The notes under the pieces: generated by a model
What the model saw: the letters and a program-made list of their open reading frames with translations, nothing else
What the model was told of the DNA's origin: nothing
The model's database searches: none
Translations under genes and position numbers: made by a program
DNA from: Conus ventricosus
Taxonomy: Eukaryota > Mollusca > Gastropoda > Neogastropoda > Conidae
Assembly (NCBI GenBank): GCA_018398815.1
Contig: CM031620.1
Location: forward strand, 60,580,634 to 60,644,633
Direction: 5' to 3'
DNA length: 64,000 bases
Part shown: one piece after another, positions 18,621-25,799 of the stretch
Position numbering within the stretch: position 1 is the stretch's first letter
Layout of the letters: every line of letters begins with the position of its first letter

Positions 18621-18759
18621 CGAGTTCTTCAGTCTGTGGCTAATATGACCCTTGGAGCAGTCCTTGCTATTCCACTTGATTTGCTCTCTTGTCCATGGTT
18701 TCCCCAGCTTGCCGTTGATAGTACAAATGAATAGTGTGAACAGGGATGAAAACAGTTTT

Positions 18760-18890
18760 TTAAAAAAAAAGAGGAGATTGGCAGGATCTGTGGTTCACCA
18801 TGGGCCCCCAGTGGGGTCCATGGGCAACAGCCCGCGGGGGTCAGGGGTGCCGCCCCCTGAAGCTGAAGCATATTTTGCATTAATAAGGCG
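18760..18890 (+). repeat. Dispersed repeat fragment ending CCCTGAAGCTGAAGCAT
   Basis: GC-rich patch with GGGGTCAGGGGTGCCGCCCC and CTGAAGCTGAAGCAT. The same order (GGGTCAGGGC...CCCTGAAGCTGAAGCATTTT) occurs at 26575-26625. It looks like one end of a transposable element I cannot name. Confidence 0.5.
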
Positions 18891-19140
18891 TAAAAATCTT
18901 TAGAAATCACTTTCTTGCTTCTAAACAACTCATTCTAATTTCTATAGAACAGCTTTCAACACCATGAAGACAGACTGACGGGAAAGAAACTATGTCATTT
19001 GAGACAAAGCAAACATTTAGCATGATGAATCCTCAGAACTGTAGCTAAAGAAAATTTGACAAACAGTGCTTTCAGAACATAAAGAATAAGGCCTGTAGAT
19101 AAGTAAATCAGAGTGGGAAATCAAACTAAGTAATCAGATG

Positions 19141-19325
19141 TATGAAAACGACTGCTGGACTTCAATAAACACAATATGAAAAATGATTACTTTGAAGTCC
19201 TTTAAAAAATTAAAAAAAACCACTCAAGCTTTTGGGCCTTTGACCCCTTCGTCAGGAAACACTAACACAAAAAAGAACATAAAAGAACAAATGACATCAA
19301 AACAAACTGATGTCACAACAGTACA
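19141..19325 (-). repeat. Dispersed repeat copy (minus), hammerhead-like core
   Basis: Read on the minus strand it contains GACATCAGTTTGTTTTGATG, then CCTGACGAAGGGGTC, GGCCCAAAAGCTTG and AAGGACTTCAAAGTAATCAT. The same blocks in the same order, plus strand, lie at 25810-26060. Confidence 0.75.
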
Positions 19326-19520: not shown

Positions 19521-20162
19521 GGGTGAGGGTGGGGGTTGTGGGAGAAGGAGGAGGAGTAGAGGAAGTATATATGTAGTGGGCACGGCGCACGAAACCCAGC
19601 CGTTGCTCCGCACTCAGTATCATCGAGACTGCCATTTCAATGGCTCACAGCTAAATAAAGCGGCCAGCTATGAACCAATCAGCGTGAAGGCGTGCACGGC
19701 GACCACCTTCAATAGCAGGAAAGAAGACGACCTTACCCGCCATGTGCGCGTGGTGTTGTCTGTGGTGAATTTGTGCAAAAAGTGCGAATTTCGGTGTGTT
19801 TTGGATACTGCAGTTCATCATCTTCGGTGGTTGCTGTGTTCAAATGTCTTAGCTCTGTAAAGAAGTAGACAGGATATCACTTTTGTCCAGATCTTCAAAA
19901 CACCAACTTGATCAGTGCGAGCGACTGGAAACGTTTCCTTCTCGAGATAAGTATAAATTCGTGCATTTTGGGGTTTGTTGACAATATTAAAACTTAAATT
20001 AAGGTCTTTTGGTTTTTTTGTCCGCTTTTACAATTGTTCTCAGGAAAGTTTTTAGTTTCCAGTATTAAGTTAAAGTCATATACCCGCTGGAAGGCTATAC
20101 GTAGGGTGCTTAAAGTACTTAAACCGTGGGTTGTTCCCGGCCCAGTACAGCCTCTCCGTGTC

Positions 20163-20170
20163 TGACGTCA
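20163..20170. promoter_or_regulatory. Consensus CRE (TGACGTCA)
   Basis: A perfect palindromic cAMP-response/ATF site sits about 550 bp upstream of the start of the transposase-like gene, followed by a CT-rich stretch. Whether it is used is unknown. One 8-mer can occur by chance in 64 kb. Confidence 0.25.
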
Positions 20171-20444
20171 CTGTCTGTGTCGGTTTAACACGCAGGTGCG
20201 TGCTCCTGCTCAGGCCTCGTGCTGTTCGTTCACTCTCTCTCTCTCTCTGGTGTCTGTCTGTCTGTCTCTCTCTGTCTCTGTCCTCTCTCTGCATGCTTAC
20301 TGAATTTTGTCATTGCAGGAGTCATCATTTTCCCCTGTGTTTTCTTCACTTAAGAATTCGGCGGCTTTTCCCCGTATTAACTTCCTCGCAACTTCAGTCC
20401 CCCCGCCCTGTGCTTTGACTTACTAACTGATTGATTCTTTTCCC

Positions 20445-20712
20445 TGTCTGCAGTGTGTGTGTGTGGGTGGGGCGCGTGTGCATGCCACGGTACGTGCGCG
20501 TCGTGGTGTTGTGGTGTGTGTGTGTGTGTTGTGTGTGTGTGTGAGAGAGAGAGAGAAGAGAAGGAGAGAGAGAGTTGCGCGTCAGTGACTAATTTGTGTA
20601 CTGCACTGTGTCTTTCAGATAAGTTAATGAATGTGCATGTAAGTGTACATTGCCGTCCTGGTGTCTATTGTGTGTTATGTGTGTGTGTGTTGTGTGTGTG
20701 TGTGGTGGTTGA
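20445..20712. repeat. TG and GA microsatellites
   Basis: TG runs at 20453-20540 and 20670-20705 with a (GA)n patch at about 20543-20572. Confidence 0.85.
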
Positions 20713-20718
20713 CTGAAG

Positions 20719-23700
20719 ATGGCGTCCGTTCAGCACACAGAAACTAATCATACAGTGAGACTGAACTCTTTATGTAGACTATGTGTGGTCGTTAAACCAA
20801 CCCGTTACAGGAAAACATTTATTGCAATAAATATGCATCAGAACTGGAACAGGCATATGGACTTATCATTTCTGAAGAAACAGAGGGCAAGCTGTACTCT
20901 AGAACAATGTGTACAAATTGTTATGGTATATGAAACGGAAAAAAAGTGCTGCTGTTCTCCAATCAATAAAAGAACAGATAGCCAGTACACATAGCCTGTG
21001 GACTGAGTTTGACCCAACGATTGAAGAAGCTGATTGCACTGTGTGCCACACGTTTCATGAACAGTCCAAACCACGTAGACCTGTTAAAAAAAGGAAACTG
21101 GACCCCCTAGCAAATCAAAACCGAACAGTCGGCAGCAGGGAAATCTGTGATGACAGTAAGAAAGGCGAGTCGCTTGACACAGATAGTGTAGTGATATTTC
21201 TGACAGTGCTGTTCCTTATTCAGATGGGGATATTTGTGGCAGCAATGTTGCAGACGACATAGCAAGAGACAGGACAATGACCACCACTTGTAACACAAAT
21301 ATAGATCAGAGTGATGACTACGTTGATGGAATCAGTGAGCAAGCTTGTAATACAGGCCCTCCTAGTAGTAGTGATGACGTCAATGTCAGCAACGTCACTG
21401 CAACTGAGACAGTGCATGATAGTAGTGTGGCCGACATAAGTGAAGTTCTTGACAATACCCTCAGTGGTGCCTGTGAAGAAACATCTCTCAGCGCAATAAC
21501 ACTAGCAGAACAGAAGCTGACAGCAGTGACAGAGGAGCAATGTTCCAGCCTTCAGCATCGTCAACACCTCAACAGAAGACTGTCAAAAGGCGGCTGTTGG
21601 ACTTTCTCAATGCCCGAAGGCCAGACTTCTTTCAGAATGATGCCAACAATATGAGCAGTTTACAAGTCCAAACAGAGATTGATAAGGTATCAACTGACTG
21701 CACACCAGGAATGCAAACACAGTCAGTGCTGAGCACACCTGTAACTAACCCTCATACACAAGATTCAGGGACTAACAAAACCACACAAAACAGTGAAGCA
21801 CCGCTCATCACAAACTGAGAAAAGAAAATTAGTTCGACCACTAGAAGATTTGTGTGCACATCTGACAGCTGGAGAAGAAGCATATCTCACTCGTTTAGTC
21901 CGTATCAAAATGGAACAATCCAGTGACAAACAGACTGTTGCATGCAAAACTAGGGGTCAGCCTAAAAAAGATCATCAAAGCCAGAAAGTCTTCAGCCTTT
22001 GCAAGTACTCCCACTAGAAGGAAAAGAGGACAGCAAGTTGCACAAATCCGCAAAGAATATTCAGGTGCTTCGGAGTCTGATTTGTTGAAACAGCAAAGCA
22101 CTGAGCTTAGATTCACCGGAAAAAGAAAAAGGACAAGAACTAAAAGCTGCTGTGTTTGAAAGGACATGTCACTGCAAAACAGGCAACAAAAATGAAAGCA
22201 AGAATGTTGCTGACTTGGGCAAAACAGAGGCAGTTTAGGAAGATATCAAAACAGGCAGGGATAACACTTGATAGTGAGGAAAAAGAAAGACAGTTTCAAA
22301 ACAGTTTGAAGTGTGGAAAGATTCCGGTAGACTGGAAAAAACTAATCTTCCATGACCAGAAAACTAACAGAGATGAAAAGAAAAGTACCCCTGTGGTGCG
22401 GGTTGAAGATTTGCCAACATTCCTGAAAAAACTGTTAGACCAGTATGAAGAAAAGAAGTTGTTGACATGGCATCATAACACCATTCCTGAAAATGAAATA
22501 TGGGTGAAAGTTGGAGTGATCATGGGGGTGGCAGTTTCAAACTGGTCATGTCTGTCGCAAATGTTGAACCCCCAATGCCAAGGAAAACTGTTTCCTGGTC
22601 TGCATAGTAGAGGCAAAAGACAGCAGTGCAAACATCAGAACTGTTTTGAATCCTTTCAAACAGCAGATCAGTCGGCTTGCACAAACCAACATGGAAAGGA
22701 AAAAACATTAGGCCGTTTCTGTTTGGGATTATGATTTCCTCCTGAAAATGTATGGGCTGTCTGGAGCTCAGGGTGTGTATCCATGTCTGTGGTGTACAGC
22801 CACAAAAGAACAAGCACAAAAGAAGTGCAGTGATCGATTTGGGGATACCATCGAACAGAGAACGCTTGAAGGCATGAAGAAAATGCATGCAAAGTTTGTG
22901 AAAGAAGGTGGGAAAATATCTCAGGCCAAGTGCTTCCAGAATCTTATCTTGCCGAATGTGTGGGACATTGAACTAGATCATGTCGCCCCTCCCTACCTTC
23001 ATATCCTTTTGGGAATTGTCAAGAAGCATCATGATCTTTTGGAAGATGACTGCTATGATGTTGACAAAAGGATAGCGCTAGATATGGCAAAGAAAGAGGA
23101 AACCAAATGTAAGAGGTACACACCGGGAGTTTCAAAGAAGTGTTCGGAGGGTGAAGATGTGCTGTCAAAGTCAGAAAACAGATACTCCTTCACTGAAAGG
23201 CCTGAATCCTTTCAAGAAGGGTGAAGGACCAGTAGGTGTTGCAGTTGAGTCTGTGCTTCAAAGACACAGGATCGTGAAGCAAGCCTACTACAGTGGCACT
23301 TTTATCGGCAACCACTGCAACAAATACCTCAAAGCAGAGGTCATTACGGATATCTTTGACAGCATTGAGAATACAGTGAATAGTATGACAGACGACCAAA
23401 GCATTCAGGCCATAGAAGAAATAAAACGTAAACACACCACGTTGAACAAGGCTTATTCCAATGTGCACAGCCTACTGTCATCAAGCCAGCCTGTTGAGAA
23501 TGATTTTAAAGAGATCCAACTCGCAATCGACCAGTATATGACACTGTACAGAGTGTACTTTGGTCATCAGATCAATGTTATCCCAAAGCAGCACATCCTG
23601 AAGACACTGTGCTGACTGGATCCAGAGGTGAAATTTGGGTTAGCTTTACTTGGTGAACAGGGGGAGAAGGTATGCATGCCACTGTCAACCAGCTGAAGCG

Positions 23701-23824
23701 CAGAGCATGGGGTATTAGAAAAGATGACCAGAGGCTGGCCCTGATCATGCAAGAGCAATGGATGCAAGCCTCCCCCATAATGCAGGACACGCCTAAGAAA
23801 AAAAAGAAAGGAAAGGCAAAGTAA
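20719..23824 (+). mobile_element. Frameshifted transposase-like gene with RAG1/Transib-like core motifs
   Basis: A start at 20719 (AAGATGG context) opens a coding stretch of about 3.1 kb, broken into several frames. In order: a CxxC...CxxC finger (SLCRLC near 20770, MCTNCYG at 20907-20927); DCTVCHTFH then a basic KKRKLD patch (21033-21100); and a Ser/Thr-rich low-complexity part. The core carries DHGGGSFKLVMSVANV (first Asp at 22518), EAKDSSAN (Asp at 22619), MYGLSGAQGVYPCLWC (about 22750-22799), an HVAPPYLHILLGI helix (about 22978) and GTFIGNHCNKYL (about 23296). It ends with an acidic GEQG-type motif with MHATVNQLKRR (about 23652-23708) and a Lys-rich tail. The order D, D, GLxxxGxVYxCxxC, GxF and a final Glu-rich motif parallels the RAG1/Transib catalytic core. 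The family name is uncertain. No terminal repeats were found. Confidence 0.6.
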
Positions 23825-25799
23825 CATTCCAAATTTTAGACAATGGACAAACCATTGTGTGTGTGGTGTGTGTGTGTGTGTGTGTGTGTCTTTCACCAGA
23901 TAACTGCACGCCCATTGTAGTCATCATGAATGCGCAGCTGCATATGCTTTATGCATTATCTCAGGTGTCAACTTACACAGTCATCATGTTTCGTGTTCTC
24001 TATGTTGTATATAGTCTAGTGTCAGTTCTGTTTGTCCGCGTCCATTCGCTTTTAAAGTTTTTTGTTATTTAATTTGTTTCTTTGTGGTTTGGATGGTTGG
24101 GTTGGCTGACTGGTTTGTTGCTTTGTTTTGTTGTTGAATGCTTTTGTATGAAATCGCAGTTTGTTTGGTATTCTTAAGTCAACTTGTTCTTTCTTGCACT
24201 GCCATTTTGATTCATTCATTGCACATAAAGACTGCTTTCTTTTTAAGAGTAAAACCGTTTTTTACGTTAGCATACATTATTTAACGACCAACCCAGTTTA
24301 ACCCCACCCTCACCCCTCCTCAGGCCGCGTATTGCTCTGCACATTCGCGTACTGTGGCACATTACCAGGAAGGAAATTGAATCATTCAGGAATCTAGTTC
24401 ATAAAGGAAACACAATACTGTATGATCTTTGTGGCATCGAACAAACACAATCGAAGCAGTTTTCAATGTGAACCTCGTAGGATAAGTGACATGTGTAGAA
24501 TCTTGTTTCCTGTCGCTTGATTGGACTCCCCCTTTCCTCCTTTATTCGCCGACGGTTTTATTCCTGTCACCATTCTTCCCCAACAATCTTGCTGCTTCTC
24601 TGTTCCTGTTTGCTTGCCCAACCCCCTCTTCACCTCTAAATCTACGCCCCACTGCTTTATTCTATGCAATTATCTTTACATCCCACACATTAATTGAGTG
24701 TGTGAGTTGTGTGTTAAATCAGTGTTAAAAGTACGTAAAAAAGCATGAAACATGCACACCAAAAAGCTGTCATGTTTAAGTGGAAATTAAGCTGTTACAT
24801 CACAGCAAAAACTACGTCATGAAAACAAACCAAATCTTCCATGTTTATGGGAAATAAGATTTACACTCACAGCAAAAAGAAAAAAAAATGAAAAACACGC
24901 AAATCAAATTGTGATTGTAGTGCTGTGTTTACTTCGGTCCTGGTGAATGGGCTGACAACGTTTGGGACAGCAAACAGTGACGAACTGATTACCTAGTATT
25001 AAATAGCTTCCACTCTTCTCTCCACACACACACTTCACCTCTCTTACTACTTCTCTCCGTTGTTTGGGTGATTTGAATTGGCGGAAAACTCACAACGCTA
25101 GCAGACACACGAGCGGTTCAACACCAACACGAGAAACACGGAAAGCGAAAGAAGTGGATTTTGTTAATCAGTCGGAGGTAACTTGTCTTTTGAATCAAAA
25201 TTGGTGTTGTTTGTTCAATGTTATTCGACTTCTTTCCAATAAAGTGGAATTAGACGTGTGTGTGTATTGTGTGGGTATTGTGGGGTTTCTTTTGCGCTCA
25301 TCGTTCTCTTTTGTCATGTCTGTCTCGATCCGCTCTCCCTGTGCGTGCGTTTGCCCCCGAATTCTACTCCCACTTGCCTTGTCTGGTCCTGCGTAGACCG
25401 GAGTATCTTGAATACCCAAGCTCGACCGCAAAGGGCCATACACACGACACAGTGAGGGTCAGTTTTTCGTAAAGCCAACTTTCTTGGGAAGACAAGCATT
25501 AGGGCCCTACATTTCCGATCGGTACAACGTGTACCCGCCACACAGTGATGCCAGCCATTTCGGTGTGGGTGTCCCCCCACTGCAGATCAGTTGGAGAAGT
25601 TGCGGCGGGCGCATGCGAGAGGGAGACTGGGTAGGGAGAGGTGGAGGCTACTGGGGGGAAGGGTTGTCCCTCTTGGAAAAAAGGGACCCCCTCGCCGCAA
25701 GATTGTAATTAGGTGCCGTGGGGGGGGAATAAGGAAAAGGATTCATAGGGGCTGTTAGCAACATCTAACAAATGTTAGAAACGTTGCTATACCAGGGGT
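23825..25799. other. Sequence without recognised genes
   Basis: A TG microsatellite lies at 23856-23890, followed by T-rich sequence that could be a 3' untranslated part of the preceding gene. From 24300 on nothing is recognised. Short frames at 25064-25470 and 25484-25708 have no family resemblance. Confidence 0.5.

Follow-up and report, generated by a model that had tools for sequence, protein, structure and literature searches.

The stretch of DNA analyzed here, referred to below as the window, consists of 64,000 nucleotides of the mollusc Conus ventricosus (assembly GCA_018398815.1, contig CM031620.1, positions 60,580,634 to 60,644,633 of the forward strand). It carries a mobile element which is almost certainly a DNA transposon of the Chapaev group living in an animal genome, the sole recognized gene of which coded for a DDE transposase carrying a Chapa zinc finger at its N-terminus and sharing the fold of RAG1, the enzyme building the antibody genes of vertebrates. 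The homology, the predicted fold of close relatives, the ends, the target duplications and the copy number are what the analysis shows directly. The element in the window is apparently a decayed copy, and its features are as follows:

19581..25720, forward strand: whole copy of the Chapaev-type transposon, 6140 bp, delimited by BLAST among 16 copies and the window, by its 5' boundary and by the 3' end of other copies
19581..19591, forward strand: 5' terminal inverted repeat, CACGGCGCACG, matching the 3' ends of other copies once these are reverse-complemented
20719..23824, forward strand: single-exon transposase gene interrupted by frameshifts, recognized from its frames, its insertions and deletions (indels) and the DUF1280 match of the joined protein described below
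20764..21097, forward strand: Chapa zinc-binding domain, CRLC...CTNC...W...CTVC, homologous to the N-terminal region of RAG1 and frameshifted here (hidden Markov model, HMM, from 27 of 42 aligned relatives)
21943..22273, forward strand: helical region CKTRGQP..., tentatively put at the place of the nonamer-binding domain of RAG1 because it is collinear with it in the full-length profile alignment; end approximate
22492..22544, forward strand: GGDHGG with the predicted first catalytic Asp, D606 of the joined protein (Asp in 102 of 102 covering rows); the frame changes inside this segment
22724..22795, forward strand: GDYDFL with the predicted second catalytic Asp (D676) and the C(2)C zinc ligands CLWC, aligned with D708 and C727/C730 of RAG1
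22988..23014, forward strand: LH motif, PPYLHILLG (His in 103 of 103 rows)
23583..23704, forward strand: H(4)H zinc motif and predicted third catalytic residue E991, the second Glu of GEQGGE, aligned with H937/H942 and E962 of RAG1
25713..25720, forward strand: decayed 3' terminal repeat, GTGCCGTG, set by eye, where other copies have CGTGCGCCGTG at their 3' end

The transposase gene runs from an ATG at 20719 to a TAA at 23824, exactly the limits proposed in the first-pass annotation, which was made from the letters alone. The motifs quoted there are all present, but they are spread over three frames of a frameshifted gene: one frame holds DHGGG, GTFIGNHCNKYL and GEQG, a second holds EAKDS, DYDFL, YPCLWC, PPYLHILLG and HATVN, and a third holds NEIWVKV, just upstream. 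When three relatives were compared with the window copy using tblastn, P0010 and P0012 traversed it from 21820 in frames 1-3-2-3-2 (P0012 with one additional frame-2 piece), while the pieces of P0001 lie in frames 3, 1, 3, 2, and 2. Taking the ten best copies together, the window copy departs from their majority by 32 substitutions and 19 indels, 18 of the latter shifting the frame; the ranges among these ten are 20–61 substitutions and 4–38 indels. The large proportion of single-base indels may be in part an assembly artefact.

A read-through protein of 1042 residues built from two copies (the joined protein) matches Pfam DUF1280 at 5.5e-20 (72.4 bits, cut-off 25). The resemblance goes far beyond chance: 179 homologues were recovered in the protein search at E <= 0.001, and eight key residues are 98–100% conserved in the covering rows. 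The named sources among the 120 homologues listed are Littorina, Haliotis, Plakobranchus, Branchiostoma, and the sponge Ephydatia, and the ten best protein matches show 39–50% identity over 94–99% of the core query. The alignment used to assess conservation comprises 103 rows, namely the joined protein and the 102 listed homologues longer than 480 residues; in the covering rows, D606, D640, D676, C695, C698, H767, H965, H970, and E991 are conserved at 98–100%, and the zinc and LH motifs (C695/C698, L766-H767, and H965-x4-H970) each at 99–100%. The H(4)H motif reads PKQHILEDH in copy L004, and in the window copy its second His is out of frame and the region of the E991 codon sits at a frame change.

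Based on conservation and alignment, D606, D676, and E991 are predicted to form the D-D-E active site. In the hhalign alignment, D676 and E991 face D708 and E962 of RAG1 and D600 of RAG1 is left unaligned; D606 is paired with D600 because the fold places it there, not the profile alignment. The Asp of EAKDS, previously put forward as the second catalytic residue, is invariant in the covering rows, yet it lies opposite the ADES segment of RAG1; since it is the Asp of GDYDFL that aligns with D708, the earlier assignment has to be abandoned.

The fold of the RAG1 core is present in the confident predicted models of two relatives, P0001 and P0012. All 47 structural matches in the PDB at E <= 0.001 are RAG1 (41), an amphioxus RAG1-like protein (1), or HzTransib (5), and the structural alignments with vertebrate RAG1 show 14–16% identity. 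A structure-based placement, one of the checks proposed at the outset, thus puts the family with RAG1 and Transib.

The N-terminal part was first thought to differ from that of RAG1, and this view did not hold. An HMM of the columns of the first 130 residues (from the 27 relatives mentioned above; E-values for a nominal 100,000 sequences) matched the joined protein at 1.6e-26 and found residues 100–248 of mouse RAG1 at 1.1e-10 (best single domain 4.8e-8). With the full-length family profile, chains of RAG1 were also hit (2.5e-7 to 2.4e-6), and an N-terminal fragment gave the best of these matches. We take this domain to be the Chapa domain described in PMC4411706 (this and the other papers are cited from the excerpts of their text available). 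The same source reports a RING in two Chapaev subgroups. No RING was found in the joined protein in the Pfam scan; precomputed annotations give a RING in two of the 120 homologues listed (P0091 and P0108) and the RAG1 importin-binding domain in three (P0014, P0020, and P0116), and upon rescanning ten proteins, the latter three were above the Pfam cut-off and P0091 was just below it.

Weak matches of the Chapa domain to the zinc-finger associated domain (zf-AD, or ZAD), all below the cut-off (4.8e-5 to 0.04), were also seen at residues 18–81 of P0091, P0020, P0012, and the joined protein (0.029 in the latter), and the full-length family profile touches the solved fly chain 7po9, which we take to be a ZAD, at 0.18. 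The N-terminal zinc region of RAG1 may be a relative of the ZAD.

Comparison of the 16 copies and the window shows that the repeat extends well past the gene, and CACGGC stands at the 5' boundary in 11 of the 14 copies examined (the exceptions are L017, L020, and L021). Copies usually carry CACGGCRCACG at one end and the reverse complement of it at the other; these sequences are altered in several copies, including the window copy (3' end), L020 (5' end), and L022 (3' end). Both ends, placed by eye, are available in nine copies, all of which start with CAC, and eight of which end with GTG (L013 has CGT). Exact 4-bp target site duplications flank five of the nine (acgt, tcgg, ctta, acct, and gaat). 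The empty counterpart of the L019 insertion in L010 fits, apart from one mismatch, a duplication of 4 bp, and that of L016 in L011 is too altered to read. No flanking duplications of 5–8 bp occur in any of the nine copies.

These duplications bear on two other identities. Chapaev3 belongs to the same group and also carries the Chapa domain (PMC4411706), but its duplications are 3-bp TWA (PMC4079192), which were not found in the copies with both ends; the five 4-bp duplications contradict this identity, which is extremely unlikely. A Transib element or a RAG1-RAG2-like (ProtoRAG) transposon would share the fold, the order of the active-site residues and the zinc motifs, but the duplications contradict it as well, being of 4 bp and in none of the nine copies of 5 bp. 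In addition, the joined protein, scanned at E <= 1, has no match to Pfam RAG1 (PF12940), and the Chapa domain is present, whereas canonical Transib has no such domain beyond its core in the excerpts of PMC4411706 and PMC7204232. None of the 26 open reading frames (ORFs) of at least 60 residues around the transposase has a Pfam match at E <= 0.05; two have sub-threshold matches (DUF5796, 0.078, and Aft1_HRR, 0.082), and none is to kelch or PHD. In this decayed window copy no RAG2-like gene was recognized, as first noted from the sequence, and an element of the Transib or ProtoRAG type is exceedingly improbable.

Searching the 3.5-Gb genome gave at least 50 DNA matches to the gene, 11 of which (the window included) cover the full query at 86–100%, and DUF1280 matches at at least 124 places. 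Further copies and their ends were obtained, and the Chapaev-group transposon of the window was very probably mobile in recent times. Two of the DUF1280 places, L026 and L030, have open frames of 2144 and 1879 residues, lengths which are not real because the frames run into long N stretches. L016 and L021 match at 89% across the element and both flanks, and therefore one of them probably arose from duplication of the surrounding DNA rather than from transposition. A separate repeat just upstream of the element (18736–19280) matches DNA near L018 at 91%.

Several points weigh against the assignment to Chapaev with a RAG1 fold. The 3' terminal repeat of the window copy is decayed and was not recovered by the pattern search. 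Four of the nine copies have no exact 4-bp duplication: the window flanks, tggg/gggg, are exact for 2 and 3 bp only, within a G run, and no flanking duplication was found for L013, L015, and L016. The models are those of P0001 and P0012, 50 and 40% identical to the joined core, respectively, and not of the window protein. The joined core alone found no relative in the PDB with phmmer, and the family core profile gave only five weak, unrelated matches. The hhalign comparison of the core profile with RAG1 gave a score of 27.8, whereas 100 shuffles reached 24.9 at most, but its reported probability is only 5% (local) or 20% (global). The case for the core rests on the fold.

The first-pass annotation suggested that the gene may represent a branch of its own within the RAG1/Transib superfamily. 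In the wide sense this is correct, but the branch is not new: it corresponds to the Chapaev group, whose first identification dates from 2007 (PMC4079192) and which has already been placed in print with Transib and with RAG1, its distant relative. DUF1280 has been equated with Chapaev, in the same clade as RAG1 (PMC3985635), and Chapaev, Chapaev3, Transib, and TransibSU have been united in one superfamily (PMC4411706). The published hallmarks of Chapaev are a 3–4 bp duplication, CAC/GTG termini, DDE, C(2)C, LH, and H(4)H (PMC4079192), and all of these were found here, with the triad predicted from its conservation, together with DUF1280 and the Chapa domain. An undescribed superfamily between Chapaev and RAG1 might be envisaged, given that the model fits RAG1 somewhat better than HzTransib and that the assignment was made by hallmarks and not by direct comparison with Repbase Chapaev sequences; with these hallmarks present and DUF1280 being Chapaev in print, this is very unlikely.

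As a Chapaev transposase, the enzyme would pair two CAC...GTG ends, and its D-D-E site (D606, D676, E991), with metal ions, would nick and excise the element, possibly via hairpins by analogy with RAG1 and Transib; insertion at staggered cuts would then give the 4-bp duplication.

A more speculative reading concerns the nonamer-binding domain. The CKTRGQP... region sits opposite the nonamer-binding domain of RAG1 (GGRP) in the full-length profile alignment, and some structural alignments with RAG1 (rows starting at model residues 172–195) include it, with a high root-mean-square deviation; compared alone with the nonamer-binding domain, it was not above shuffles. It is conceivable, although we are inclined to doubt it, that the whole RAG1 architecture (zinc finger, end-reading domain, and catalytic core) is older than both Transib and the partnership with RAG2, and that Transib lost it. 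This tentative reading supposes that Chapaev transposases have the full layout of RAG1, including a nonamer-binding-like domain before the core and, in some relatives, a RING. The Chapa domain and the RING in Chapaev are already published, and the nonamer-binding part would be the new piece.

A Chapaev family is recorded here in an animal genome with its ends, duplications, and copies. The models of the two relatives fill a gap left by sequence searches of the core, which gave no related solved structure, and support, as predicted folds, the published common ancestor of Chapaev, Transib, and RAG1. With them, Chapaev becomes a usable outgroup for asking which parts of RAG1 are old.

Among the known systems, Chapaev shares with the element DUF1280, the Chapa domain, C(2)C-LH-H(4)H, CAC...GTG ends, and 4-bp duplications, and no distinguishing feature was found in the element, the Chapaevs of Repbase being compared by description only; Repbase holds Chapaevs labelled ACa (PMC4079192), which stands for Aplysia californica (PMC4411706). 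N-RAG-TP of A. californica, also compared by description, is likewise a molluscan mobile element with a sequence resembling the N-terminal part of RAG1, but it consists wholly of that part (PMC8355894). Transib differs in its 5-bp duplications and, in the excerpts of PMC4411706 and PMC7204232, has no Chapa domain. Vertebrate RAG1 resembles the transposase in its fold, its catalytic order, its CxxC and H(4)H zinc motifs, and its N-terminal zinc-binding region, whereas RAG1 is a host gene and the element, with no recognized RING or RAG2-like gene, is mobile.
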